Shown here one piece after another: positions 3,214 through 47,026 of a stretch of 64,000 nucleotides of DNA (position 1 is its first letter; the number at the start of each line of letters is the position of its first letter). This DNA is from Massilia sp. Se16.2.3 (GTDB lineage: Bacteria > Pseudomonadota > Gammaproteobacteria > Burkholderiales > Burkholderiaceae_D). The stretch covers positions 3,038,001 through 3,102,000 of the forward strand of contig NZ_CP050451.1 in NCBI RefSeq assembly GCF_014171595.1. Direction: 5' to 3'. The position numbers were made by a program, and so were the translations under genes. Under the pieces are notes generated by a model. The model was not told the DNA's origin, searched no databases, and was given only the letters and a program-made list of their open reading frames with translations.

Positions 3214-3240
3214 AAAAGCCACCGCAAGGTGGCTTTTTTC
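3214..3240 (+). terminator. Rho-independent terminator after tRNA-Ser
   Basis: AAAGCCACC, loop GCAA, GGTGGCTTT, then a T run. It lies 14 bases past the tRNA 3' end and should end the tRNA-Ser transcript. It also separates the tRNA from the converging protease operon. Confidence 0.85.
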
Positions 3241-3271
3241 TTTCCTGCGGCAGTTATTCTACCCGCCAGCC

Positions 3272-4969
3272 TCATTCCTTCACCGGCGCCCCCAGCGGCA
3301 AATAGCCCTCGAGCTGCCTGGTCGAGAAATCGCGCAGGCACACACGGCCGCAACTGGTCGAGGCCTCGTAAGCCCGGATCGAGCCGTTTCCCGTCGGGCT
3401 GAGCGAGACGAACAGTCGCACGTGGCTGCCAGGCTTGTTCATCGCATCTCCGGGCCTGAGTTCCGCGTAGGAGGGAAGTGGGCGGGCTACTTCCTTCAGG
3501 CGTGCCGTCGTACGGCGTTTGACATTCCAGGTCTGCGAGACAAAGCCCGAGCAGTCGACCCCGGCGGCGCGGCGGTCGACGCAGTCGCCCTTCCTGCACG
3601 TACAGATATTGCCCCCTGCATAGCCCTCGGCGGTGCGCTGCATGAACGCGGCGATTGTGATGTAGCCGCCCCAGTTGTAGGGGATACCGGTAACGCGCTT
3701 GCCCAGCTGGCCCTCGAGGTAGGCCGGCCTCAACCAGCGCTTGCCGCGGGCGGGTACGCAGGCGGAGACGGCGTCTGGCCGGTAGTTGGCGGAAGTGACC
3801 TGCCACTGCGCGGTGCGGTAGGCTTCCGCGGTCGACAGGATGGCGGCGCGGGTCAGGCCGGCGCCGGTCGACTCCCCGGAGCCGGAGTCGCGCTCGCGGG
3901 CGTCACCGCTCGAGCGGATTGGACCCTGCTGGGCGGCGATGCGCCGTATCGTTTCCTCCTGGCGCCGTGCGAACTGCGCGTGCGGGAAGGGGTTGAGCGA
4001 CCACAGCCGCGTGCGATCGGGGTGCGATTCCATGAAGTACAGCGTGCCCGTGCGCGACAGGGCCAGGTAGCGGTTTGGCACGAGCTCGAGGAATTCGTCG
4101 GGAACGTCGTAGCCGCCGTCGAAGCTGCCGTCGCGTGCATAGCGCAATACCCACACCTTCGCCCGGCCCACGCCTTGCTGCTGCGCGAACTGCTCGGCAC
4201 GCACATAAAAGCGTCCATCCTCATCCGTCCCCAGCAGGGCAACCGAGCCCAGCAGAGCGGGCGCAATGGCGATGGGCAGGCGCGTCATGCGTGGCGGCTC
4301 CCCCCTGCGCACTTCCACGCGCACTTTGCCGTCGTCGCCGCGCACGGTGCGGTATTCATCCGGTTGGCCCTCGCCTGACGCGGCGCGCAGCCAGCGCCCG
4401 GTGCCGGGTGTGCCGCCGCTGTTTTCCGGGGTGCCGTCGGTCTCGCCGATGCTGTCCTCCGGGACCGCGCCGTTCGCCTCGAACATGGCGGTGGCGGCGG
4501 CCGCGGGCGCGGAGCTCGCTTCCGTCGACGCTCGGTCGAGCAGCTTGCCGGCGCCCGTGTCGCTGCCCACATACACGGGCTTGTCTTCCAGCACGTACAC
4601 GGCCCGCCCCTGGCGGACGATGTCTTGCGCCAGGCTGTGTGGACGCAGCGGCGCGGCCAGTTCGGCCTTGCCCGTGGGCGAGACGCGCAGGACGCGGGCG
4701 TTGACTGCGTCCGGGATCAACACGCCCTCGTTCCCGGACTCGACCAGGCCGGTCGGGCCGACCGCCGGCGCCTCCGGCGTGTGCTGGGTAATGCCCAGCT
4801 GCTGCGCACCGCTGCCGCGCGGGAAGGTCTTGATCACCGTGCCGCGCGGGTCGCCGGTTGTCGGTGCCGCGGCCGGGGCCGCGCACGCGTCGCCAAGGCA
4901 GAGCAGGGCGGACAGGAGCCACAGTGAACGGTTCAGTTGGCTTTTCAGGATGATGTTCAGACAATTCAT
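3272..4969 (-). CDS. Exported NlpC/P60-like cysteine peptidase, last gene of the protease operon
   Basis: A 565-residue protein starting MNCLNIILKSQ, with a hydrophobic signal segment ending near LGDACAAPA. The middle region (roughly residues 40-330) is an uncharacterised, possibly beta-propeller-like domain (VESGNEGVLIPDAVNARVLRV, GTLYFMESHPD). The C-terminus looks like an NlpC/P60 papain-like fold: GVDCSGFVSQTW with candidate nucleophile C473, GSHVRLFVS with H516, and YEAS with E535 as a possible third polar residue. Known family members cut peptide or amide bonds in peptidoglycan; substrate here is unknown. Its ATG overlaps the stop of the trypsin-like gene (ATGA, 4966-4969), so it is translationally coupled. 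The family call is by motif and is moderate. Confidence 0.7.
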   Translation of the reverse strand: MNCLNIILKSQLNRSLWLLSALLCLGDACAAPAAAPTTGDPRGTVIKTFPRGSGAQQLGITQHTPEAPAVGPTGLVESGNEGVLIPDAVNARVLRVSPTGKAELAAPLRPHSLAQDIVRQGRAVYVLEDKPVYVGSDTGAGKLLDRASTEASSAPAAAATAMFEANGAVPEDSIGETDGTPENSGGTPGTGRWLRAASGEGQPDEYRTVRGDDGKVRVEVRRGEPPRMTRLPIAIAPALLGSVALLGTDEDGRFYVRAEQFAQQQGVGRAKVWVLRYARDGSFDGGYDVPDEFLELVPNRYLALSRTGTLYFMESHPDRTRLWSLNPFPHAQFARRQEETIRRIAAQQGPIRSSGDARERDSGSGESTGAGLTRAAILSTAEAYRTAQWQVTSANYRPDAVSACVPARGKRWLRPAYLEGQLGKRVTGIPYNWGGYITIAAFMQRTAEGYAGGNICTCRKGDCVDRRAAGVDCSGFVSQTWNVKRRTTARLKEVARPLPSYAELRPGDAMNKPGSHVRLFVSLSPTGNGSIRAYEASTSCGRVCLRDFSTRQLEGYLPLGAPVKE

Positions 4970-6090
4970 TTGTCGAGCTCCTCGAGTACTTGCTGCATCC
5001 GTTTGACATCGACCGCCGTGTTGTAGAACTTCTCGCCCGCAGTCAGGCGCCGGGTGTATTCGCTCATGGTGATATTCGGGAAGCCCTTCACCTGTACACC
5101 GACGACGCGGCCGCTCGCGTCGAACAGGGGCGATCCGGAGCTGCCGCCCGCGGTATGGCAGGTATGCCGCAGGTTCGCGGCCGTCGCTTTGTTGTCCACG
5201 GCCTGGCAGTCGCGCGACAGCATCATCGGCAGGCCGCCGGGGTGATGGATGAGCTCGACCTTGACGGGCAGGGCCGCATTGACGTCGGCGAAGCGTGCCA
5301 CGGGCCGCCCGGCCAGCAGGGGCAGGTCGGCAGGGGCGACCCTGAGCACGGTGATGTCCGGTGTCTTGTAGGTTTTCGCATCCAGGCAGCGCAGCGTCAC
5401 TGGCGGCCTGGTGTCGCTCAGGTAATCGAGCAGGATGTCGACGTCGGCGCACGACTTTCCGCTGCGGCTGAACGCGGACGACGCTTCGATGCAGTGGTGG
5501 TTGGTCATGATCTTGCCCGGCGCCACCAGGAAACCAGTGCAGGAAGACATGTCGGAGGTGAACAGGAGCTTGACCACGCCCCGTGCGCGCTGCTGGGCCG
5601 GCGCCGCTTTATCCAAGTCGGCAATGCTGGCCCAGGGCTGGTCGACGGCGCCGATCGACAGCGGCCGCGGATCCCTGCCGCTGTCGGTGAAATAGTCGGA
5701 CAAGGTGAGCCGCAGCGCGCGCGGCCGCGCCGGCGCTTCGACATATGCGCTGACCTCGCTTGCCTGGAAGCGCATGGTGACCAGCGGCCGCTCGGGATCC
5801 ACGTCCAGCAAGGACAGGCGTTGCAGTTCATTGCCGGCTTCGTCGCGCACTACGATGAATGCGGTCTCCTTGCGGGGATTGCGCAAGCTTGTGAACTTCA
5901 GCCGGATGAAGCTGGCGTCGTTTGCCTTGATGGGCGCGCTGCGCCACCACACGGTGCCGCCGTAGTCGCTGTAGGTGGCCGTCAGACCGAGCGGATGGCG
6001 CTGTTCGAAGCTCGGTTCGCGGCCGCTCGCCGTCGTGACAGTCGAGGCCAGCATGAACAGGCAGAGCAGCGCGGCAAGGGTTCTTTTCAT
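4966..6090 (-). CDS. Exported trypsin-like serine protease
   Basis: A 374-residue protein with a Sec signal peptide (MKRTLAALLCLFMLASTVTTASG). Residues ~25-165 form an unassigned beta-rich domain. The C-terminal half is a chymotrypsin/V8-like peptidase: TNHHC gives His199, TPDITVL gives Asp245, and GGSSGSPLF gives Ser318, the full triad. Several cysteines (184, 200, 214, 235, 295, 311) suggest disulphides and a periplasmic or secreted site. Both ends overlap neighbours by ATGA: its start sits in the stop of the S8 protease (6087-6090) and its stop in the start of the NlpC/P60 gene. This points to fixed stoichiometry with both. Confidence 0.85.
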   Translation of the reverse strand: MKRTLAALLCLFMLASTVTTASGREPSFEQRHPLGLTATYSDYGGTVWWRSAPIKANDASFIRLKFTSLRNPRKETAFIVVRDEAGNELQRLSLLDVDPERPLVTMRFQASEVSAYVEAPARPRALRLTLSDYFTDSGRDPRPLSIGAVDQPWASIADLDKAAPAQQRARGVVKLLFTSDMSSCTGFLVAPGKIMTNHHCIEASSAFSRSGKSCADVDILLDYLSDTRPPVTLRCLDAKTYKTPDITVLRVAPADLPLLAGRPVARFADVNAALPVKVELIHHPGGLPMMLSRDCQAVDNKATAANLRHTCHTAGGSSGSPLFDASGRVVGVQVKGFPNITMSEYTRRLTAGEKFYNTAVDVKRMQQVLEELDK

Positions 6091-8225
6091 GGCAGGAGGT
6101 CTCCATCGCAGCCTTTGGTGAAGGAACAAGCCGTGTAGTCCTCGACATCGGCTACGGCCACCTTGGGCAGGCCGGTGAACGAAATGTAGGTGTCGCTGAA
6201 CATCGCTGCGCTGTAGCGCTTGAGGACCTTGTTCTTGCGCACCACAACCCAGAAGCGCTGCTCTCCGTTCGGCAGCCTGGTGGCCTGCAGGCGCTTCACG
6301 TCGCGCATGACCAGCGACAGGCCGTTGACCGTGTTGCCCTGTTCGTCGAGGGCATAGGAAATGTTCACCGAGGTGCTCGGGCTGGCGTCGCCACGCAGTA
6401 TGCAATTGCCCCTCGGGCAGGTGCCGGGACGCAGGCGCAGCACATCCTGGCTGAAATCGAGTGCCCTGGCAAAGTCGATCCGGCCAAAGCGCATCTTGCT
6501 CTCGAGCCCGTCGATGAAGGTGGATGTGAAGAGGATCCGGTGCTTGATCCGCCTGGCGTCGATCTTGGCCGTATCGCGCTCGACGCGCTCGAACAGGAGG
6601 GCCGCCAGGGCGGACACGTAGGGCGCGGCGAACGAGGTGCCGGCGTAGCGGGCGTAGCCGCCCCCGAACACGGCGCCGGTGGTATCGCCCACCGCCGCGA
6701 CGTCGAACTGGATGCCGGAATTGGAAGAGCCGAGCAGCCTGCGCCCGCCGGCATCGAGAGCAACGACACTGATGACCGCATTCGCACCCTCGCCCTCGTT
6801 CGACCAGCATGCCGGTATGACCCGGCATGCGACGCCCTGTTTGTTGAAGTCGGTTCCTTCGTTGCCCGCCGCGGCCACGAACACGACCCGGTGGCCATAG
6901 CCTTCGACCGGCGAGATCACATGGGCCAGCTGGGTCTTGATGCCGTCCTCCTTCGCTTCATAGGCCTGGCTGATATTGACGACGCGCACGTCAGGCATGC
7001 CGATCTTGTCGGCCTCGGTCACGAACAGGTCCTTGTTGAGGTTATCCCCCACATGCTCGACCTGCCAGATCACGGCATCGGGCGCGGCACCGACGACGAA
7101 AGGCGGCGTGCTCTTGCCGACGATCAGGCTCGAGACAAAGGTCGCGTGATCGAAGGCGTCGCTCAGAAAATTGCGCAAGCTGCCGCACGTGGGCGAGGAC
7201 GGTACCTTGCCCATTTTCGATACATCGATCGGCAGGGGCGTGTAGAGGACGATGGCGCTCTGGCCGCCGCGCTTGAACACACAGTGCGCTTTGTCGGCAT
7301 AGCCATCCCAGACCCCGACGCCAAGGGGCTTATTTGGCATCACGCGCTGCGGGCCGCGCACGTAGTTCATTACCTGCAAGGGGTTGGGCGCAGGGCCCCG
7401 CGCCGCTGCCGCTGCCGCTGGGCGCGCGGACGGCGGGGCACTCTGCTGCTTCAGGTGGATGGGCACGGTGGCGCGCATGTCGGAGCTCAAGCCGGACAAG
7501 CCGTTGCGCGCGCGAATGGCGTCGACGACAGTGTTGAAGACGTTTTCGATTTCCTTGCGTCTGGCGGGGTTGTCGCGGATGTGGATCTGGATCGACTTCG
7601 CCGGGAGCATCATGGTGGTCACGCCGTCCCGCAGTTCCGGCTTGCCGCCGGGATTGAGCCGTTCGATGACGCGCTTGCACCGGGCATCGAAGACGTCGCA
7701 TCCGCGCAGGTCCCTGGTGACCTTCAGGGGAATGTTGTCGAGCTCGGGGTTCGCGACCACGCGCTTGCCGGCCAGGTAGGACTTGATCGGCACCTCGGGC
7801 AGGCAGATGATGTAGCGTGGCAGGCTGGCGTCGTCGCAGCTGAACTCCTCCGGCGAGACCGTGGTCGACCAGGGCAGCTTCTGCATGCGCCAGCTTGCCC
7901 GGCCCTTGACGACGGAACAGATGTGGCCGTTGCGCCTGCACAGCGATAGGCTCAACAGGTCGGTGACGACGCCTTTGGGCCAGCCGAGTTCAGCCTCGAT
8001 GAGTTCGGCGGGATTCTTCGCCGACTTGTTGAGGAAAGCCTCCATGCGCAACAGGCCGCGGTCCACCAGTGCGCCGGTCACTTCCGCGGTGTTCTGCTCG
8101 AGGTTGCCACCCTCGAAACGCAGGTTCAGGCGATCGTCGTCGTGGGACGGACCCTGGGCCAGGGCGCCCAGCTGCAGCACAACCGGGGCGAGGGGCGGCG
8201 CAGGCCCGGCGCCAGCCGCCTCCAC
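6087..8225 (-). CDS. Subtilisin-like (S8) serine protease with a long N-terminal region
   Basis: The 712-codon frame opens at GTG 8225. The true start is uncertain: ATG 8248-8250 in another frame, joined by an indel, is an alternative, and no clear signal peptide is visible with either. Residues 1-295 show no recognised domain but hold paired cysteines. The peptidase follows: VGVWDGYAD (Asp307), FDHATFVSSLIVG (His360), AAAGNEG (oxyanion Asn455) and AGTSFAAPYVSALAALL (Ser531). All four catalytic positions are present, so activity is expected. A C-terminal ~120-residue domain ends with TACSFTKGCDGDLLP. Second gene of the lipoprotein-S8-S1-NlpC/P60 operon. Confidence 0.85.
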   Translation of the reverse strand: MEAAGAGPAPPLAPVVLQLGALAQGPSHDDDRLNLRFEGGNLEQNTAEVTGALVDRGLLRMEAFLNKSAKNPAELIEAELGWPKGVVTDLLSLSLCRRNGHICSVVKGRASWRMQKLPWSTTVSPEEFSCDDASLPRYIICLPEVPIKSYLAGKRVVANPELDNIPLKVTRDLRGCDVFDARCKRVIERLNPGGKPELRDGVTTMMLPAKSIQIHIRDNPARRKEIENVFNTVVDAIRARNGLSGLSSDMRATVPIHLKQQSAPPSARPAAAAAARGPAPNPLQVMNYVRGPQRVMPNKPLGVGVWDGYADKAHCVFKRGGQSAIVLYTPLPIDVSKMGKVPSSPTCGSLRNFLSDAFDHATFVSSLIVGKSTPPFVVGAAPDAVIWQVEHVGDNLNKDLFVTEADKIGMPDVRVVNISQAYEAKEDGIKTQLAHVISPVEGYGHRVVFVAAAGNEGTDFNKQGVACRVIPACWSNEGEGANAVISVVALDAGGRRLLGSSNSGIQFDVAAVGDTTGAVFGGGYARYAGTSFAAPYVSALAALLFERVERDTAKIDARRIKHRILFTSTFIDGLESKMRFGRIDFARALDFSQDVLRLRPGTCPRGNCILRGDASPSTSVNISYALDEQGNTVNGLSLVMRDVKRLQATRLPNGEQRFWVVVRKNKVLKRYSAAMFSDTYISFTGLPKVAVADVEDYTACSFTKGCDGDLLP

Positions 8226-8273
8226 CGAACCCGGAACGACGCGTCGACATACGAGCCACCTCGCCGTTGGCCG

Positions 8274-9343
8274 TTAACGATGGACCTTGATGGAAATGCT
8301 GCCGCCGGCCACGGGCCGGTCCGGGGAACGGAAGGCAGGCCGCCGCCGTTGCGTTCCGGCGTTTCTTCGGTTCCCGAACCGGCACCGCCTGCGCCGGCAT
8401 TGCGCAGGCTGGCCACGAGTGCCGCCAGCTTCGCCTCGCCGCGCTCGACGATCGGCGCCAGTACGCGCTTGATCCGGTCCCTGTCTTCCGGCGACAGCGG
8501 CTTGAGCTTGCCATCGCTGCCGACGAACAGCGCCAGCCCCTGCAGGTTCTTCGCCAGCAGCGCCTGCTCCGCCGGGGTGGGTGCGCCCAACACCAGCCAG
8601 TAGATCAGGGCGACCTGTTCGGTTGTCACGGTCGGCTCGCCGATGGCACGGGCGATTGCAAAGCGGTCGGCGGCCGACAGCAGTTCCTCGCCCGTGGTCG
8701 AGGCGACAAACCTGGCGGTGCCGACCGACTCGTTGACCAGGCGGCGGATCGTTTGTACCTCGCACAGCTTGTCGTAGTCGCGCAGGATGCCGACCGCCGC
8801 GCCATAGCTCATCGCCGTCACCGGCGGCATGGCCGCGCGATAGGTAGTTTGGGCACCCTCGACCAGGTCCTGGATGCCGCTGATGTCGGGCGAAAACAGG
8901 AACACGTCCGCATAGGATTCGGTCGAGGCGCTGCCAAACGAGAACATGCTGGACGTAATCGCAATCGCCTTTGCGGAGACCCCGGTCACGCCTTGCAGGC
9001 CCGCGACCAGGCCGCCGGTCAGGCCCAGCTCCTTGCGGCCGAAGGCATAGCGCTGCGCGGCCAGGCCAAGGTTGCGGAAATACGCCTTGCACCCGATATC
9101 GGCCATGGCCATGCCGGTCTCGATGAAATTGCGCACGACGGTCGCATCCGAACGAGCCGCCTGCGGGGCGGACAGCGCCGCGTTGATGTCTTTCAGGGAG
9201 CTGTCGAAGGAGCGCTGCAGTTCGGCCACGGTGCTGGCCGAGATCGTTTCCGCCGGAGGCTGGATCGATGCGCACCCGGGCAAGAACATGAGGGGAAATC
9301 CGAACAGGATGGAACAAACGAACCGGTCGCCACGGAGTTTCAT
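8274..9343 (-). CDS. Lipoprotein, first gene of the protease operon
   Basis: Starts MKLRGDRFVCSILFGFPLM with lipobox LPGC, so Cys24 or so is expected to be lipidated and the protein anchored in the envelope. RBS AGGAAG lies 5 bases before the ATG. The body is mostly helical (VAELQRSFDSSLKDINAALS, GMAMADIGCKAYFRNLGLAAQR). I recognise no family. Near 8315 the frame changes: the reading that ends GPVAGGSISIKVHR (stop 8274) is more natural than the frame that runs on across the next gene. It is about 350 residues and immediately precedes the S8 protease, so it may be an anchor, receptor or chaperone for it. Confidence 0.65.
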
Positions 9344-9649
9344 CACGCTTCCTTTGCCTCTGGTTGCGTTTCCCGGCTGGCGCCGGGGGCGCAACGCAGC
9401 TTGAGCCATCGATGCCGCACTGGCGCTGCTGGCAGGCCGAAGCGGTCCCACAGTCTGTATGCAGTCGAACTGGAAGTACTGGATGCGAAATCCAGTCTAA
9501 TGTAAATACGGTAAAATTGTAGGACTGCGCCGACAAAATTTCGTCAAGATGTTGTTATTTCGACGTCACTGCCGGTCGCTCCCAAGGACTGCCGGGCGCG
9601 GGCGCTGGGAACGGCAAAGGCGCCGGAGATGTACAGGAAGGGCGCGAGC

Positions 9650-10081
9650 TCAGCGCGGACGGTGCTGGCGCCCGCTCGTCCGCATGCGGCTGGCGCGCCC
9701 CGGCAACGGGCGCGCCTGGGCCACCGCGAGATCGGTGGTCAGGCGGTGCAGCGACAGCAGATCGGCGCAGGCGGCCATCGCTGTGCGGCCGAGTTCGGCA
9801 TCGCCGGCCTCGACGCGGGTTTCGATCGCGTGCAGCGCGCCGAGCAGGAAGGCGTTGTCGGCGCGCCGCGCCTGCAGGCAGTCCAGGCCCAGCATCTCGA
9901 TAACGGCTTCCTCATGCGCCAGCTCGGCCTCGATGATGGCGACCACCCCCGCGAAGCCGCGCACGAATGCCGCCTCCGGTTGCTGGAAGAGCCCGTGCAG
10001 GCGCGCGAACAGCAGCTTGCGTGCACGGCGCAAGGCATGGGCGGCGACATGGGGCGCCGCGGGCATGTGCGGCGAAGGCAT
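9650..10081 (-). CDS. Hemerythrin-like small helical protein
   Basis: A 143-residue protein predicted to be nearly all alpha-helical. His and acid residues are spaced as in four-helix hemerythrin-type proteins: FARLHGLF, AELAHEEAVIE, ALHAIETRVEAGD, LLSLHRLTTD (HxxxxD). Homology to hemerythrin is my inference from this pattern; a general helical domain is the alternative. The last ~20 residues (RPLPGRASRMRTSGRQHRPR) look less protein-like and may follow a frameshift. A perfect FNR/Anr-type palindrome is centred ~64 bases upstream of the ATG, so oxygen- or NO-linked expression is plausible and fits an iron-oxygen protein. Confidence 0.55.
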   Translation of the reverse strand: MPSPHMPAAPHVAAHALRRARKLLFARLHGLFQQPEAAFVRGFAGVVAIIEAELAHEEAVIEMLGLDCLQARRADNAFLLGALHAIETRVEAGDAELGRTAMAACADLLSLHRLTTDLAVAQARPLPGRASRMRTSGRQHRPR

Positions 10082-10129
10082 CTGGCAGACATGAACCGGC
10101 GTGGATCGGAAAGTTTGCGTCGGTCGGTG

Positions 10130-10161
10130 CAGGCACCTTTGATCTAGATCAAAGGTGCCTG
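10130..10161. promoter_or_regulatory. FNR/Anr-type operator within a 32-bp perfect palindrome
   Basis: The core TTGATCTAGATCAA (10139-10152) matches the FNR/CRP-family consensus TTGAT-N4-ATCAA at every defined base. The symmetry extends outward through AGGCACC/GGTGCCT to a perfect 32-bp inverted repeat. It lies between the end of the upstream kinase gene (10187) and the start of the hemerythrin-like gene (10081). Its centre, ~64 bases from that ATG, would suit class II activation (-41.5) with a ~23-base leader. The extended arms could also form a hairpin that stops kinase transcription, though no T run follows. Confidence 0.75.
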
Positions 10162-10186
10162 TCGCCAGCAGCGCTCGCCCGCGTGT

Positions 10187-11333
10187 TCAGGCAAGCGTGG
10201 GCGCATCGCGAAACGGGCGCGCATCGATGGGGATGTCGATCAGGAAGGTGGTGCCGCGCTCGCGCGCACTGTCGAGCGCGATGCTGCCGCCATGGCTCTC
10301 GGCCACGCCGCGCACATATGGCAGGCCGATGCCCCAGCCTTTCTGCTCGCCGGCCCGGGCCGACTGGGCACGGCGGAACATCTGGAAAATCGATTCCTGG
10401 TCCTCGACCGGAATCGGGTTGCCTTCATTGTGGACCGACAGCAGCAGGCGCTCGTCGACGGACCGGACCCTGATGCGGATGGTGGTTCCCGGACTGCCGT
10501 ATTTCACCGCATTGCCGACCATGTTCTCGAGCGCGCGCTTGAGCGCCGGGCGCGACCACCAGCCGAGCACCGGTTCGCCGTCCGTTTCGATGTGGTGATC
10601 GCGGGTGAGGGCGGCATCGCGGCACACTTCGCTCACGACCTCGCCGATGTCGAAGCGTGTCAGCTCCAGCTCGGGGCGTCCGTTACCGTGGAACAGCATC
10701 GAGTCGAGCAATTCGCGGATCAGGCCATCGGCGCGCCGGATGTTGCTCAGTACCTTGTCGGCGAATTCGCTGGTCCGCGCGGGGTCGGCGTTGCGTACGA
10801 TGAGTTCGGCGGCCAGCGCGGCGGCATTGAGCGGATTGCGCAGGTCGTGCGTCAGCGCCGCGAGGAAGCGCTCGCGCAGGGCGCTGTGCACCGGGGTGAA
10901 GGCGTTGACCGCATCCTTGATGCCGCCATCGATCGCGTGGTGGATGGCCGCGGTTTCCCTGAGCGTCAGCGTGGCGCCGTCCTCCTGCAGCACCTCGAGG
11001 GATGACACTGCGCAGGATCTGGTATTCGCCGATCAGCGCCTCGTGGTCGTAGGCGGACAGGCGTGCGCGCTCGCCGCCATGTTCGGCCGCGATCGTGGCG
11101 CCCGCCACCGCGTCCGCGCGCGGATAGCCGGGCGTCACCGCCTCGCAGATGTTGTCGTAGAAGGCCGGCAGCGTATCGACCAGTACCGGATGGCGCAGCG
11201 CATCGGCTTCCCCGATGGCGGCGCGCACGCGCTCTTCCCAGCGGGCGAACACCCGGTCGCGCAGTGCGAGCATGCGGCGGGAAGTGGGAGCAAGGTCTTG
11301 CTGGTCGGGTTTCTGGTCGCTGGCGAAAGTCAT
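10187..11333 (-). CDS. Sensor histidine kinase with RsbRD-like N-terminus, frameshifted
   Basis: The N-terminal ~130 residues (MTFASDQKPDQQDLAPTSRR onward, with VLVDTLPAFYDNICEAV and YDHEALIGEYQILRSV) resemble the soluble RsbRD-type sensory domain found in front of some kinases. Then come the HisKA H-box ALTHDLRNPLNAAAL, N box VGNAVKYGS and ATP-lid motifs GWGIGLPYVRGV. A one-base loss near 11003 splits the two parts. No membrane segment is seen, so it is probably cytosolic. No response regulator is adjacent. The gene is co-directional with and upstream of the hemerythrin-like gene, separated by the FNR-type site. Confidence 0.8.
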
Positions 11334-11582
11334 CGATTGGGCAGGACGCCGCCACCTTGCCGGTGGCGCATCTGTTTGATAATTATTGGAAAATTTACCA
11401 CGGTGCGGCCGGAAGGCGGCGCCCGCCCTGCAGTGTGCGCCCGCCATGGGCAAGCAGCGGGGCCATGCCGGTGCCGGCAGGTACGCATGCCGGGATCGGG
11501 ACGTGCATTCTTGCTGCTTGTCAACGCCAAGGGCCGGCCGCGATGGGAGCATGGATTTCGGTCCCGGACGCGTGGAGGAGAA

Positions 11583-13283
11583 ATGGATGAGCTGCTACGG
11601 TATTTCGAGGAGGAGCTCGGCGTGTTTGGCGGCTACGCGCGCGAGTTCCGCAAGCGCTTCCCGAAGCCGGCAAGCGACCTGCACCTGGCCGGCGAAAGCT
11701 ACGAAGACCCGAGCGTCGCGCGCCTGATCCAGTCGGTGGCGCTCCTGAGCGCGCGCATTCACAAGCGCCTCGACGACGACTACCCGAAGTTCACCGAGTC
11801 GCTGCTCGAGAGCCTGTATCCCCATTACCTGCGCCCGTTGCCCTCCTATTCGGTGGCGCAGCTGCTGGCCCCTGGCGCGGACGCTTTCTCGCTCATCGCG
11901 CGGGGAACTTCGCTGCGCAGTCATCCGGTGGGGGGCACGGTCTGCCAGTTCCGTACCGTCTATCCGGTGCTGGCGGGCCCGCTGCGCATCGTGCAGGCGT
12001 CCTTCAGCGTCCATGGTGGCGCGGCCGGGGCGCGTCTGCCTCGTGGCGCGAACGCCTTCATCGCCGTCGGCTTCGAGATGAAAGGTTCGCTGCGCGAACT
12101 GTGCGCGCGCGGCCTGGCGCCGATACGCGTGTTCGTCGAGGGCGACCCGTCGCTGCGCGCGGACCTGGTCGACACCCTGTGCATGCGCGCCAGCCAGGCC
12201 TGGGTGCAAGGCGCGGACGGGCCATGGCTGGCGCTCGATGCGGTACCGCTGCGGCTGGCGGGGTTCGGCCAGGACGAGGCACTGCTGCCATTGCCGCAGC
12301 GCTCGCATCCGGCCTTCGGCCTGCTGACCGAATACTTCAGCTATCCCGAAAAATTCAACTTCATCGACATCGACCTGGAACAGGCGGCGCACCTGCTGGC
12401 GCCCGGCTGCACGCGCTTCACCGTGCACCTGGCGCTGTCCGGACTGCCCCTCGATTCCGACGCGGCGCGCATGCTGTCGGCGCTGTCGCCTGCCAACCTG
12501 CTGCTGGGCTGCACGCCGGTGGTGAACCTGTTCCGCAAGGGCGGCGACCCGATCCAGCTGTCGCATACGCGCGCCGAGTACCCGCTGGCGGCCGATGCGG
12601 CGCACGCGGCAGCCTTCGACATCCACAGCATCGACCGGGTTTCCCCGGTGCGCGAACTGCGCGGCGCCAGCATCACGACCGAGTTTGCGCCGCTCTACGC
12701 GCTGCGCCATGGCCAGGGAGGCGATCACGGCCACTTCTGGGTCGCCCGGCGCGACGACGAGGCGCTGGCCGGGGTCAGTCCCGGCCACGAGATGCGCCTG
12801 GCCCTGCTGGACGCGGATTTCAATCCGGGCGATGCGGCCGGCGCCACCATATCGACCGAGCTGACCTGTACCAACCGCGACCTGCCTTCACAGCTGGCCC
12901 ACGGCCTGCCCGGCGGCGACCTGGTGGCCGAGGCCGCCTCGGGCAGCCTGCCGCTGCGCCTGTTGCGCAGGCCGACGCCGAGCTACCGTTTCGGCAGCGG
13001 CCACGGCGCGCACTGGCGCCTGATTGCCCACCTGTCGCTGAACCACGCGGGCTTGAGCACGGCGAGCCTGCCGGAGCTGCAGCGCATGCTCGCGCTCTAC
13101 GACCTGGCCCGCTCGCCCGTCGCACGCCGGCAGATCGCCGGCATCGGGGCACTGGAACACGGCACCGTGCGCGCCTGGTTGCCTACCCGTCCCGTGGCAT
13201 CACTGATGCCGGGCGTGGGGATCCGCATGCGCGTCGACGAACGCGCTTTCGTGGGCAGCGGCCTGTACGTGTTTGCCCGGTAA
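11583..13283 (+). CDS. tssF: Type VI secretion baseplate subunit TssF
   Basis: A 566-residue protein beginning MDELLRYFEEELGVFGGYAREF, with FTESLLESLYPHYLRPLPSY, the hallmark of TssF (VasA/ImpG). TssF, with TssG and TssK, forms the wedge of the T6SS baseplate in the cytoplasm. The ATG at 11583 follows a GGAGGAGAA ribosome-binding site. The upstream gene faces away and no tssE, tssB/C, tssH or vgrG lies nearby, so with tssG it is an orphan pair here. Length is slightly below the usual ~590-620. Confidence 0.9.
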   Translation: MDELLRYFEEELGVFGGYAREFRKRFPKPASDLHLAGESYEDPSVARLIQSVALLSARIHKRLDDDYPKFTESLLESLYPHYLRPLPSYSVAQLLAPGADAFSLIARGTSLRSHPVGGTVCQFRTVYPVLAGPLRIVQASFSVHGGAAGARLPRGANAFIAVGFEMKGSLRELCARGLAPIRVFVEGDPSLRADLVDTLCMRASQAWVQGADGPWLALDAVPLRLAGFGQDEALLPLPQRSHPAFGLLTEYFSYPEKFNFIDIDLEQAAHLLAPGCTRFTVHLALSGLPLDSDAARMLSALSPANLLLGCTPVVNLFRKGGDPIQLSHTRAEYPLAADAAHAAAFDIHSIDRVSPVRELRGASITTEFAPLYALRHGQGGDHGHFWVARRDDEALAGVSPGHEMRLALLDADFNPGDAAGATISTELTCTNRDLPSQLAHGLPGGDLVAEAASGSLPLRLLRRPTPSYRFGSGHGAHWRLIAHLSLNHAGLSTASLPELQRMLALYDLARSPVARRQIAGIGALEHGTVRAWLPTRPVASLMPGVGIRMRVDERAFVGSGLYVFAR

Positions 13284-13371
13284 TGGACCGCTATTTCGGC
13301 CTGAACCGGCAGCTGAACTGTTTCAGCCGGCTCCAGATCGTCTCGAGCCAGACTGGAGAGGAGATCCTCGC

Positions 13372-14511
13372 ATGCGCCCCGCGCACCGGCGAAACGCTGC
13401 GGCCGTGATCGAGCGCCTGCTCGCCGCGCCCCACGAGTTCGAATTCGTGCAGGCCGTGCGCGTGCTGCTGGCCTGGCTGGCGCGGCAAGGCGTGGCGCCC
13501 GAGGCCGCCTTGCGCGAGCACCTGCGCTTCGAAAACAGCCTGCGCCCGGGCTTTCCGCCGGCGCAGATCGAGGCCCCGGTATGCGAGTCCGGGACCAGCC
13601 TCGTTGGTGTGGACGATGCTGGCGAGCCGGCGCCGCCGCGCCTGCGCATGACGCCTGCCTTCATGGGCCTGCTGGGCACCCAGGGCAGCCTGCCGGCCCA
13701 TGTAACCGAGCGCATCGCTGCCTGGCAGGCCGGGCACGATGACGAGGCGCCGCGCGCCTTTCTCGACATGCTGTCGGGGCGCATGCTGGCGCTCTTTTAC
13801 GAGGCCTGGTTCAAGCATCGCATCGAACTGGCGCCTGCGGGCGGCGCGGAGCGCCTGCGGCCCTTGCTGCTGGCACTGGCGGGATTCCCGGACGACAGCC
13901 GCGCCCTGGCCGGCAGCGTGCCCGCGCCGGAGGCCGGTGAGAACCGCCGCGCCCGCGGTACCCGCCGACCTGGTGGCGCACTTCGCCGGCCTGCTGCAGG
14001 GACCCCCGTGTCGGGTGTGGTGCTCGAGCGGGTGCTGGCGAGTTACTTCGGGGTCGCCATCGCACTCGAGGAAGCCGTGGGCCACTGGAGCCGACTGCTG
14101 CCGGCGGAACAAAGCGCGCTGGGGACACACGCGCTGCTGGGCCAGGACACCGCGCTCGGCGAGCGCAGCTGGCGTCCCGACCTGCGCGCGCGCCTGCGCA
14201 TCGGCCCCTTGCGGCGTGCCGCATTCGAGCGCTTCCTGCCCAGCGGCGAGTCGGCCGCGACGCTGCGGGCGATCCTGCGGGTGCTGGCGCCGCCTTGCGT
14301 CGAATTCGAAGTGCAGCTGGTGCTGTGCCGGAGCAGCGTCGGCCCCAGCTTCCTTGGCGCTGGCGGGGACGCGCCGCGTCTCGGCCGCGACAGCTTCCTC
14401 CTCACCGGCGCGGTGGCCTGCGACCGCGCCGACATGCGCTACGTCATCGCGCCGATGGCCGCGCTCGCGCCCCTGAGCGGACGGCAGCAAGGCAGCAGGG
14501 CCGCCCGGTGA
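13372..14511 (+). CDS. tssG: Type VI secretion baseplate subunit TssG, internally frameshifted
   Basis: ATG 13372 follows GGAGAGGAG and opens MRPAHRRNAAAVIERLLAAP. TssG family features include FEFVQAVRVLL, LRFENSLRPGFPPAQI and RLRMTPAFMGLLGTQGSLP. The C-terminal part shows ERSWRPDLRARLRIGPLRR. Between about 13925 and 14010 the reading frame is wrong: PAVPADLVAHFAGLLQGPP appears in another frame, and the original frame then resumes at SGVVLERVLASYFGV. This is a pair of compensating indels. It is normally about 340-380 residues and this fits. It pairs with TssF in the baseplate wedge; 88 bases separate the two genes. Confidence 0.85.
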   Translation: MRPAHRRNAAAVIERLLAAPHEFEFVQAVRVLLAWLARQGVAPEAALREHLRFENSLRPGFPPAQIEAPVCESGTSLVGVDDAGEPAPPRLRMTPAFMGLLGTQGSLPAHVTERIAAWQAGHDDEAPRAFLDMLSGRMLALFYEAWFKHRIELAPAGGAERLRPLLLALAGFPDDSRALAGSVPAPEAGENRRARGTRRPGGALRRPAAGTPVSGVVLERVLASYFGVAIALEEAVGHWSRLLPAEQSALGTHALLGQDTALGERSWRPDLRARLRIGPLRRAAFERFLPSGESAATLRAILRVLAPPCVEFEVQLVLCRSSVGPSFLGAGGDAPRLGRDSFLLTGAVACDRADMRYVIAPMAALAPLSGRQQGSRAAR

Positions 14512-14563: not shown

Positions 14564-16081
14564 CTACTTCAGGATCAGGTTCGCAAAGTTGATCGACTCG
14601 CCGATGAAGGCGACCGCACATCCTTCCGCCGGATACTCGAAGTCGAAAGCGACCTTGCCCGCGGTGTCCACGCCGATCAGCTTGGTGACGGTTCGGCCGG
14701 CGGCGACCGAGTAGGTGACGAGGAAGTGGCCGGGCGCGCTTTCATAGACGCTCGAACAGATGTCGGAAAAAATCGCCGGTGTCGGCGAATAGGCCCAGGT
14801 CTCGGCGGCCGTGCGCGCCGTTTCATCGATGGTGTAGCGCGAAGGCGTGCTGTAGTCGCGCGTGACGCCCGGCGCGGTACCCGGCGGCTGGTTGGCGCTG
14901 CCCAGCCCGTTATTGAACAGCAGCAGCTCGCCGTTCGATGCCATCGACAGCGCGTGCTGCCCGACCGGCGGCTTGCCCGCCTTGAGCTTGAGCGCCAGTG
15001 CGCGTAGCGAAGGGTAGTCGACATACCAGTGCTTGCTGGTGTCGCCCAGCAGCCACTTGATGCGCCCGCTGGCGTAATCGAGCTTGACGACGAAGTTTTC
15101 GCGGCTGGAGATCAGGAGCGAATCGTCGGCCGGGACATAGACCGCCGAATTCATGTGGAACCAGTCGACGCCGTCGCGCACGAAATTCGACGGATCGTCG
15201 CCGCCGGCCTGCATGGTCGAACGGAAGATGGCGTTCAGGTCCCATTCCTTCAGTACCTCGCCGCCCGGGCCGACCTCGGCCAGGATGGACTCGATCTTCC
15301 GAATGCCGCCATCCTGCGCGTCGACTTCGGCGAGAAGCCCAAACTTGCCCAGCGCGAGGTCGTGGTGGAAGTTGGTATAGCGCGCGGATGCGAGCCGGGC
15401 GGAGGTGTAGGTGCCGTCGAGCCTCAAGCGGAAGAGCTCGGGCGCCGTCTGGCTACCGACGTAGAAGGAATCGGGCTTGAACACCGAGCTCAGGGAGTCG
15501 CCCGCGCGCGCGCCGAGCCAGCGCAGGTTGCCGTCGGTGTCGAGCACGGCTGGCGTGGCGAGGCCGTTCTGCAGCATCATGTAGTCGAAGCCAGGCACGG
15601 CTGTCGCGCTGCGCGCGGTGCGCACCTGGGGTGTACTGTAGCGCGCCCCCGGTCCCGTGTACGCGGGCGTGGCCACCGCCACCTGCAGGGCGTGGGTGGA
15701 ATTGTCGTGGAAGGTGGCGGTGATGGAAACGGCGTTCTGGTACCCGGCGTACAGGCCGAACACGGCAAAGGCGAGCCGCTTGTCCGCCGGGCGCCAGGCG
15801 CCGTTGCGTTCGAGCCAGGCGCGGGTGTAGGTGACGGCGACCGGCTTCGAGAACGTTCCCGGCTTGGGCGCCACGGTGAATGCAATCCGGTCGAGGTCGT
15901 CGAAGTCCTTCATTTTCAGGGCGACGTTGGCGATGAACGGTGTCGGGCCGGCGCTTTGTTCGGCAAGGCCGACTTCGGCCTCTTCGGCCTGGTCTTCATC
16001 GAACTTGCTGCAGGCGCTGGCCAGCAGGCAGGCGCCCAAGACCATACAATGGCGCAAATGATGGCGAATAACGGGCTTCAT
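14564..16081 (-). CDS. Arylsulfotransferase (AssT)-like lipoprotein
   Basis: A 505-residue protein starting MKPVIRHHLRHCMVLGACLL with lipobox LASAC, hence a probable envelope lipoprotein. The body resembles the ASST/AssT beta-propeller family: GFDYMMLQNGLATPAVLDTD, FHHDLALG, DWFHMNSAVYVPADDSLLIS (conserved His), KWLLGD, PVGQHALSMASNGELLLFNN and YESAPGHFLVTYS. Classical enzymes transfer sulfate between phenolic compounds using a catalytic His. Activity here is inferred; many propeller relatives are uncharacterised. RBS GGAGGA precedes the ATG. It diverges from copA across a 170-base region holding the CueR-type promoter. Confidence 0.75.
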   Translation of the reverse strand: MKPVIRHHLRHCMVLGACLLASACSKFDEDQAEEAEVGLAEQSAGPTPFIANVALKMKDFDDLDRIAFTVAPKPGTFSKPVAVTYTRAWLERNGAWRPADKRLAFAVFGLYAGYQNAVSITATFHDNSTHALQVAVATPAYTGPGARYSTPQVRTARSATAVPGFDYMMLQNGLATPAVLDTDGNLRWLGARAGDSLSSVFKPDSFYVGSQTAPELFRLRLDGTYTSARLASARYTNFHHDLALGKFGLLAEVDAQDGGIRKIESILAEVGPGGEVLKEWDLNAIFRSTMQAGGDDPSNFVRDGVDWFHMNSAVYVPADDSLLISSRENFVVKLDYASGRIKWLLGDTSKHWYVDYPSLRALALKLKAGKPPVGQHALSMASNGELLLFNNGLGSANQPPGTAPGVTRDYSTPSRYTIDETARTAAETWAYSPTPAIFSDICSSVYESAPGHFLVTYSVAAGRTVTKLIGVDTAGKVAFDFEYPAEGCAVAFIGESINFANLILK

Positions 16082-16196
16082 GCATCCTCCAGGTTGACGG
16101 CATACGGATGGGTTATCTCTTCGATTTCCGCGGCCTGGCCGCGTTCCCCTGGCCGGCTCGCGATAGCGAATGGCGCAAGAAACCCGGCTGTCTGGC

Positions 16197-16227
16197 TTGA
16201 CCTTCCCATCGTGGGAAGGACCAGGCT
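16197..16227 (+). promoter_or_regulatory. CueR/MerR-type copper-responsive promoter of copA
   Basis: A -35 hexamer TTGACC (16197-16202) runs into the dyad CCTTCCCATCGTGGGAAGG (16201-16219). A weak -10 (CAGGCT, 16222-16227) sits 19 bases downstream of the -35. The over-long spacer with a CCTTCC/GGAAGG dyad is the known signature of CueR-activated copA promoters. It ends 25 bases before the copA ATG. No cueR gene is present in this window. Confidence 0.85.
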
Positions 16228-16251
16228 GGATGGATCGCAAGGAGATTACCT

Positions 16252-46156: not shown

Positions 46157-46233
46157 TGGTGCGGCTGGCAGGAATCGAACCCACGACCCCTTGGTTCGTA
46201 GCCAAGTACTCTATCCAGCTGAGCTACAGCCGC
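46157..46233 (-). tRNA. tRNA-Arg (ACG), copy 1
   Basis: A 77-nt tRNA with encoded CCA. Acceptor GCGGCTG/CAGCCGC, D arm AGCTCAGCTGGATAGAGT, anticodon loop CTACGAA (ACG, read as ICG), T arm GTGGGTTCGAATCC. Upstream on the same strand is GCTATAATGCG with a perfect -10. Identical in all 77 bases to the next three copies. Confidence 0.96.
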
Positions 46234-46431
46234 CCGAGGCACGCATTATAGCGGCACCTGGCGGAAATGGGAAGAGGCCTGGGGCAGGCGGCTTTGCCCT
46301 GGCAGGAACATCGGGTTGGCATCGATGCCGCCTGCGCGTCCAGCCACCCTGCGATTCAGCGTGCCCTCTGCAGTCGAAAGAACAGGAGGTCCGTCGAAAC
46401 TGCCCCGGCCGCCGCGACGCGACAACGAAAA

Positions 46432-46457
46432 AAGGCCAGATCTTGCGATCTGGCCTT
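46432..46457 (-). terminator. Terminator of tRNA-Arg copy 2
   Basis: Stem AAGGCCAGATC/GATCTGGCCTT with loop around TTGC, followed by U residues (A run 46428-46433). Nearly the same hairpin serves copies 3 and 4. Confidence 0.85.
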
Positions 46458-46465
46458 CGTATTCG

Positions 46466-46542
46466 TGGTGCGGCTGGCAGGAATCGAACCCACGACCCCT
46501 TGGTTCGTAGCCAAGTACTCTATCCAGCTGAGCTACAGCCGC
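46466..46542 (-). tRNA. tRNA-Arg (ACG), copy 2
   Basis: Same 77 bases as copy 1. It has its own GCTATAATGCG -10 immediately upstream (46550s) and its own terminator, so each unit is monocistronic. Confidence 0.96.
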
Positions 46543-46657
46543 CCGAGGCACGCATTATAGCGAAGTGTGCCGCGCTTGGGAAGCGCTTATTGCATGTCGG
46601 AAAATCGCATGGGAAGCGCCGTAAGTCGCGACATGGAAAGGGGCGCGACAAACGAAA

Positions 46658-46683
46658 AAGGCCAGATCTTGCGATCTGGCCTT
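46658..46683 (-). terminator. Terminator of tRNA-Arg copy 3
   Basis: Stem AAGGCCAGATC/GATCTGGCCTT with U run, 9 bases past the tRNA. Identical to the hairpin after copy 2. Confidence 0.85.
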
Positions 46684-46691
46684 CGTATTCG

Positions 46692-46768
46692 TGGTGCGGC
46701 TGGCAGGAATCGAACCCACGACCCCTTGGTTCGTAGCCAAGTACTCTATCCAGCTGAGCTACAGCCGC
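46692..46768 (-). tRNA. tRNA-Arg (ACG), copy 3
   Basis: Same 77 bases as copies 1, 2 and 4. Best promoter of the four: TTGGCA, 17 bases, TATAAT (see the promoter entry at 46780-46808). Confidence 0.96.
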
Positions 46769-46779
46769 CCGAAGCACGC

Positions 46780-46808
46780 ATTATAGCGGGGCAGTGCGCA
46801 ATTGCCAA
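46780..46808 (-). promoter_or_regulatory. Sigma-70 promoter of tRNA-Arg copy 3
   Basis: On the minus strand: -35 TTGGCA (46803-46808), spacer 17, -10 TATAAT (46780-46785), about 11 bases before the tRNA 5' end. The other three copies keep the -10 but have weaker -35 regions. Confidence 0.75.
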
Positions 46809-46914
46809 GCTTTCCATCAGGGCGTGTCCGAAAGGGGCCGGGAAGGCGGCAGGCGGGCACCCCGGATGCGATGAAAAGCGGGCAGGTTCCCGTGCAGACG
46901 GGCCGGAAATGAAA

Positions 46915-46941
46915 AAGGCCAGATCCTGAGATCTGGCCTTT
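46915..46941 (-). terminator. Terminator of tRNA-Arg copy 4
   Basis: Stem AAGGCCAGATC/GATCTGGCCTT variant with loop CTGA and a U run on the minus strand. One base differs from the copy 2 and 3 hairpins. Confidence 0.8.
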
Positions 46942-46949
46942 GTATTGGT

Positions 46950-47026
46950 TGGTGCGGCTGGCAGGAATCGAACCCACGACCCCTTGGTTCGTAGCCAAGT
47001 ACTCTATCCAGCTGAGCTACAGCCGC
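46950..47026 (-). tRNA. tRNA-Arg (ACG), copy 4
   Basis: Same 77 bases as the other copies; the upstream -10 GCTATAATGCG is present. It is the first unit at the right end of the array and diverges from the sensor kinase at 47151. Confidence 0.96.

Follow-up and report, generated by a model that had tools for sequence, protein, structure and literature searches.

A rare Massilia operon joins S8 and S1 proteases to a propeller-bearing NlpC/P60 protein: a candidate exported proteolytic cascade

As described in the portions of the published accounts used here, bacterial proteases can be coupled to downstream enzymes in several ways. In mycobacteria, the periplasmic S1 protease MarP cleaves RipA, an NlpC/P60 enzyme with a Cys-His-Glu catalytic triad (PMC6628586). 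The NucA-trypsin conflict systems (System 3 of Kaur et al. 2020) place several peptidases, trypsin and sometimes S8 among them, in one operon or protein; peptidoglycan-attacking effectors occur in some of them, and a cascade has been proposed (PMC7159879). In Hachiman, AVAST and canu, a partner protease unmasks a proenzyme, yielding trypsin- or caspase-activated nucleases (PMC12799240). Here, we describe a four-gene operon of Massilia sp. Se16.2.3, located in a 64,000-nucleotide stretch of contig NZ_CP050451.1 (positions 3,038,001 to 3,102,000; hereafter the window, in whose numbering coordinates are given). The operon encodes a lipoprotein, an S8 subtilase, an S1 protease and a protein that combines an NHL-like propeller with an NlpC/P60 domain (Table 1). 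Judging from titles and abstract openings, we recognised no published description of this array. We tentatively propose, at a little under an even chance of being right, that it specifies a cascade of exported proteases ending in a peptidoglycan endopeptidase.

The MarP-RipA pair shares with the operon an S1 protease outside the inner membrane and an NlpC/P60 endopeptidase. It differs in the membrane anchoring of MarP, by predicted helices, and the portion of the source used here names no S8 partner (PMC6628586). The window S1 scores 23.6 bits against the MarP family NF033740, far below its cut-off of 250. The NucA-trypsin likeness lies in a trypsin-like peptidase encoded within the operon (PF13365). 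However, the NucA/Endonuclease_NS core of those systems is not in the operon, in which the lipoprotein and the NlpC protein instead accompany a signal-bearing S8-S1 pair; the single PF01223 match of the genome (G000:C1:3523181) lies about 0.48 Mb from the operon (contig positions ~3041272-3047343). In the trypsin- and caspase-activated systems, by contrast, the effector is a nuclease (PMC12799240), and no nuclease family, the metallo-beta-lactamase type included, had a Pfam match in the four operon proteins. Because these defining features, NucA and a nuclease, fail, the operon belongs to neither the NucA-trypsin nor the nuclease-protease systems. As a cascade it would work like MarP-RipA or the NucA-trypsin systems, while being a member of neither, and its activation would resemble that reported for the nuclease-protease pairs. 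Two further profiles were also matched below their cut-offs: the type VII secretion mycosin TIGR03921 (74.1 bits against 278.75) and the anti-phage S8 peptidase IteS/IetS NF042956 (26.7 bits against 900).

The sequence-only reading of this DNA described four minus-strand genes in a row, coupled by overlaps. All four open reading frames (ORFs) are indeed free of internal stops, that of the lipoprotein spanning 8126-9343 as deposited, and both ATGA overlaps stand. The apparent overlap of the lipoprotein and S8 genes (8126-8225) does not: it is spurious, because the lipoprotein frame changes near 8321 and its tail stops at 8274. In the window this ORF departs from the frame of its relatives at about 8321-8342 and then runs on to 8126, and the GGSISI-type tail that forms the C-terminus in the relatives is encoded in another frame. 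A gene at about 180-1518 on the plus strand, which we take to be TilS-like, likewise occupies three frames in the window versus one in the two congeners G660 and G618, making assembly indels likely; those that split this gene and the lipoprotein frame are probably assembly errors. The window was used as deposited, with no indel repaired.

Table 1. Features of the operon and its surroundings in the window
Feature	Coordinates	Strand	Evidence
Lipoprotein; predicted all-helical, lipobox LPGC24	8274..9343	minus	comparison with relatives; model of relative P0029; no Pfam family
S8 subtilase; N-terminal region with conserved Cys; start uncertain	6087..8225	minus	PF00082 (1.1e-18), alignment, catalytic residues
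Exported S1 protease with a Trypsin_2 domain, a signal-like N-terminus and a further N-terminal region	4966..6090	minus	PF13365 (1.5e-15), hydropathy
Exported NHL-propeller + NlpC/P60 protein	3272..4969	minus	
NHL-like six-bladed beta-propeller, residues 40-329	3983..4852	minus	
Divergent NlpC/P60 domain, residues 370-565; Cys473, His516, Glu535	3275..3862	minus	alignment and profile matches
ATGA stop/start overlap, S8-S1	6087..6090	minus	
ATGA stop/start overlap, S1-NlpC	4966..4969	minus	
Terminator-like hairpin between tRNA-Ser and operon end	3214..3237	not assigned	weak evidence
Variable interval from tRNA-Ser to tssF, holding the operon	3244..11536	not assigned	congener comparison

The proteases were also said to keep complete catalytic sets, and all of these residues are present: Asp307, His360, Asn455 and Ser531 in S8, and His199, Asp245 and Ser318 in S1, the latter three invariant in all five aligned sequences (window included). 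Export signals had been noted on the S1 protease, the NlpC protein and the lipoprotein, and signal-like N-termini of the Sec type, as judged by hydropathy, are found there; the S8 protease had been omitted and is probably exported too, since its relatives P0001-P0003 start with a hydrophobic, signal-like stretch. The lipoprotein carries its lipobox at Cys24. Neither it nor the NlpC protein has a family above the Pfam cut-off. Where trypsin and NHL are used of proteins outside the Pfam scan, the terms are our presumed labels.

The C-terminal domain of the NlpC protein is, by profile and alignment, a divergent NlpC/P60 relative. Its Cys473 (in a DCSG motif) and His516 (in an HV motif) are invariant in 26 of 26 aligned domains, the window included, as is Glu535, a candidate counterpart of the third catalytic residue (Glu) of RipA. 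A profile of the domain matches Spr/MepS at 3.4e-06 and RipA at 1.5e-03. We call the relative divergent because the window protein does not reach the Pfam gathering score for PF00877, whereas 21 of the 26 aligned domains match that family at E up to 0.1. The assignment was made by sequence profile because structure searches with a model of the protein gave, among the matches listed, only propeller-type or unrelated chains.

The operon is rare, and its components appear to travel together. As a single-protein query, S8 found only its own genome among 399 order-level genomes, and its profile reached 2 of 392 family genomes (its own and the distantly related G446) and 3 of 398 at phylum level. 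The S1 query had matches in 3 of 369 class genomes; the lipoprotein and NlpC profiles each matched only their own genome among 145 family genomes. In protein database searches, which scored the 8000 candidates sharing most words with each query, 15 matches were obtained for S8, 12 for NlpC and 12 for the lipoprotein. Co-occurrence was judged for these three proteins by the size of the longest contig. Source contigs sized 9384, 8832 and 18123 occur in all three match lists, and those sized 19045, 3711, 6751 and 81885 in two. A size is shared with another list by five of seven close S8 relatives (P0001-3, P0005-8), six of eight for NlpC (P0016-23) and six of eleven for the lipoprotein (P0029-39); five of the nine close relatives with no shared size come from contigs under 3 kb. 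The distant matches P0009-15 and P0024-27 have no source-contig size in common. From the longest-contig sizes we infer that S8, NlpC and lipoprotein relatives recur together beyond chance, as a unit. The operon had been put forward as a unit whose homologues should be found together, and this recurrence bears that out, as does the S8-then-S1 order described next. P0013, which by eye looked like a metalloprotease-S8 fusion, was not counted, its Astacin match (E 0.0068) being under the cut-off.

Beyond these relatives, nine non-self matches to the S8 and S1 queries were compared (G446, G950, G990, G1213, G1396 and H41-H44). Five of them (G446, G950, G1213, G1396 and Rhizobium ruizarguesonis pRL10) have S8 and S1 as immediate neighbours on one strand, S8 first, with gaps of +12, +10, -4, +12 and -16 bp, respectively, and -4 bp in the window; gene starts in the G loci were taken as listed mechanically. 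No S8 lies directly upstream in G990 (by ORF list) or in Methylobacterium H42, Nostoc H43 and Caulobacter H44 (by annotation). H43 and H44 have ATPase-type neighbours, and the S1 of H44 is without a clear signal by hydropathy. What surrounds the pair varies. A matrixin adjoins it in G446, G1213 and pRL10; in G446 an S1 domain is fused to S8; a second S8 is present in G950; pRL10 has, alongside the pair, an M23 protein and, below cut-off, an Amidase_3-like one; and in G1396 a DUF1353 gene, a family with no mention in the portion of PMC10318531 used here, follows S1, with a C14 gene about 3 kb away. Alignments of the window S1 with those of G446, G950 and pRL10 extend into the N-terminal region, which also aligns between G1213, G1396 and the others; between the window S1 and those of G1213 and G1396 only the trypsin part aligns. 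Hydrophobic N-termini on most core proteases (weak in the pRL10 S1 and in the G1213 S8, with its mechanical start) support export of most of them. We propose that the S8-S1 pair is a conserved core whose partners are exchanged between lineages. The data fit a lipoprotein and a propeller-bearing putative wall endopeptidase as this lineage's addition to an exported, lineage-modular protease core.

Two side observations concern these loci. The G446 fusion cluster region (L087 71-4060) includes a large gene with weak NPHP3_N similarity under the cut-off. In an S8 protein of G950 (L095 9635-12472), a long N-terminal region resembles NHL-type repeats by eye, with no Pfam match there.

Relatives of the NlpC protein also lie beside proteases, in other combinations. 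A scan of genome contigs gave 102 loci, of which the best 80 were analysed with domain models built here. In 36 of these 80, no more than about 1 kb separates the NlpC match from a C14 or S1 domain: two Pseudolabrys-named loci (S1), one Devosia-named metagenome-assembled genome (C14) and 33 loci with Verrucomicrobia-type titles (C14). No S8 was found near the NlpC match in the best 80 loci, nor, at E 1e-3, any match to the window S8, S1 or lipoprotein. A looser search placed C14 about 5 kb off in L022 and L077 and gave a weak match inside L017, none of which were counted. In the Verrucomicrobia-titled genomes (33 of the loci L037-L080), the C14 gene is transcribed divergently from a small NlpC-domain gene that it adjoins. 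Plasmid records with an NlpC relative number 90, and all four examined have protease genes nearby. Three Rhizobium plasmids carry, in the 8-9 kb flanks of the relative, genes annotated as serpin, trypsin-like, caspase and DUF4384, and in Azospirillum p3 a caspase gene lies 52 bp upstream of it. The Rhizobium clusters resemble the Massilia operon in having exported proteases close to a protein related to NlpC as a whole (~27-32% identity); they differ in that caspases and a serpin replace S8, and the window-type lipoprotein is not in their flanks.

These comparisons bear on three ideas raised from the sequence alone: a cascade with a peptidoglycan hydrolase as target, a toxin set and an envelope defence module. 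The first fits best, given the MarP-RipA precedent and the linkage of NlpC relatives to exported proteases, and is weakened by the distant S8-S1 loci that lack the NlpC protein. Also in its favour are the shared contig sizes, the recurrent S8-then-S1 order, the G446 fusion and a tie to peptidoglycan, seen in the NlpC/P60 domain here and in the M23 and Amidase_3-like (below cut-off) proteins by the pRL10 pair. In such a cascade, S8 and S1 would be exported as zymogens, and one of them would be triggered by an envelope cue, be it damage, attack or a ligand that the lipoprotein or propeller senses. The triggered protease would process the other and release the NlpC domain from the propeller; once free, the enzyme would cut stem peptides, leading to wall remodelling or lysis; the lipoprotein may be an anchor, sensor or self-protection factor. 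We infer mutual activation of the proteases, or activation of NlpC, from architecture, linkage and the MarP-RipA precedent, and the trigger, cleavage order and target are likewise conjectural.

Several points weigh against an exported cascade. The cleavages, zymogen states and enzyme activities are presumed ones, and Glu535 is, by alignment, a candidate third catalytic residue. S8 relatives are not all clearly active, since both G950 S8 proteins have Glu where the catalytic Asp aligns, and the catalytic Asn is unaligned in pRL10. No window-type NlpC protein or lipoprotein was found in the flanks of the five distant S8-S1 loci, indicating that NlpC is not an obligate partner. Among the best 80 NlpC loci, 44 are without C14 or S1 by the same models, some on contigs of only 3-5 kb, and 33 of the 36 positives come from one lineage with a divergently transcribed caspase; a caspase has no match in the Massilia genome itself. 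In the precedent, the RipA cleft is not opened by the MarP cut alone, according to the portion of the source used here (PMC6628586). Finally, the lipoprotein is without family or fold assignment, the model of its relative P0029 having a pLDDT (predicted local distance difference test) of 60.3 and a best PDB match at E 0.56.

A simpler explanation is an extracellular digestive or predatory set, in which S8 and S1 digest proteins and NlpC digests the cell walls of prey or of dead cells as a food source, with no cascade. All of these do look like exported hydrolases, and the matrixin, M23 and Amidase_3-like proteins beside the pRL10 pair would suit a degradation kit. However, the S8-then-S1 order with overlaps or short gaps at six loci (window included), the S1-S8 fusion of G446 and the annotated serpin in three Rhizobium clusters all suggest regulated proteolysis, and we consider a purely digestive role unlikely.

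The genomic setting of the operon bears on the remaining alternatives. A long match to the stretch holding tRNA-Ser and its neighbouring gene, presumably aspartokinase (lysC), was obtained in 40 of 41 genus genomes, G643 matching in the tRNA part only. Seven downstream regions were compared (G756, G660, G609, G618, G765, G535 and G1496). The matched tRNA and tssF blocks are 8293 bp apart in the window and 78 bp apart in G756. Different contents precede tssF in G660, G609 and G618, about 3, 1.8 and 1.4 kb long, respectively, the tssF of G618 being a fragment; tssF was not found in about 12 kb of G765 and G535, nor in the 6.7 kb of G1496 up to its contig end. None of the four operon proteins had a tblastn match in any of the seven regions. 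Because the congener intervals differ in content and are without the operon proteins, the operon is, on this comparison, cargo of a variable tRNA-Ser/tssF interval. Foreign composition was rejected, the operon kilobases having a GC content of 0.64-0.70, like their flanks, and no duplication of the tRNA-Ser end was found in the window. In the congener G618 (L131 861-1110), the tRNA-Ser 3' end is repeated over 64 bp next to the tRNA, a possible integration scar. Plasmid and phage cargo were also rejected: S8 and the lipoprotein were unmatched in 72,556 plasmid records, and the NlpC protein was unmatched in 50,697 phage records and in IMG/VR (two patterns). Terminator-like hairpin sites numbered 7, against 5.0 expected.

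Such rare, patchy cargo in a variable interval would suit envelope-level defence against phage, predators or type VI secretion system (T6SS) attack, in which a breach triggers the proteases and the wall hydrolase kills or remodels its own cell. The likeness to protease-activated effectors of cytosolic defence systems, as far as the portions of those accounts used here describe them (PMC12799240, PMC7159879), points the same way. However, PADLOC matches are partial and generic only (the IetS match, at 8.5e-06, spans 40 residues), and the Pfam scan of two other interval genes gave one histidine kinase and one protein without a family; defence seems improbable as the operon's role. A histidine-kinase query matched in 24 of 41 congeners and was not used as evidence.

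TssF and TssG were confirmed by Pfam (11595-14511, plus strand). The idea of a T6SS effector set was set aside, as position lends it no support: tssF and tssG follow the same tRNA-Ser in G660, G756 and G609, where the operon proteins are unmatched, and thus their presence does not make the operon such a set. A secreted antibacterial toxin set, with NlpC as the toxin, S8 and S1 maturing it and the lipoprotein as immunity protein, is quite improbable: the lipoprotein is retained with the set in relatives and wall hydrolases are common antibacterial toxins, yet the signals are of the Sec type only and tssF/tssG also occur in congeners without the operon. The closest VipB gene in this genome is some 38 kb away from the tssF/tssG pair, and an arylsulfotransferase-family gene (14564-16240, minus strand) adjoins tssG, as in G609, G756 and G618. 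Four consecutive tRNA-Arg(acg) genes lie at 46157-47026 (minus strand).

Returning to the exported cascade, a broader and speculative version, which we consider unlikely, is that modular cascades of zymogens operate beyond the inner membrane of bacteria, with a logic like that of clotting or complement. An S8-S1 core, joined in some sets by a matrixin, and sister sets of caspases with a serpin brake would convert an envelope signal into controlled cutting of peptidoglycan, carried out by an NlpC enzyme gated by its propeller, as a programme of envelope immunity or self-lysis. Effectors switched on by proteases are already known inside the bacterial cytosol; exported S8, S1, matrixin and caspase proteases that recur, in exchangeable sets, close to wall hydrolases would carry the same principle out to the envelope. 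Both the conserved S8-S1 core and the NlpC domain family offer concrete, small genes with which ordered, exported protease cascades could be tested.

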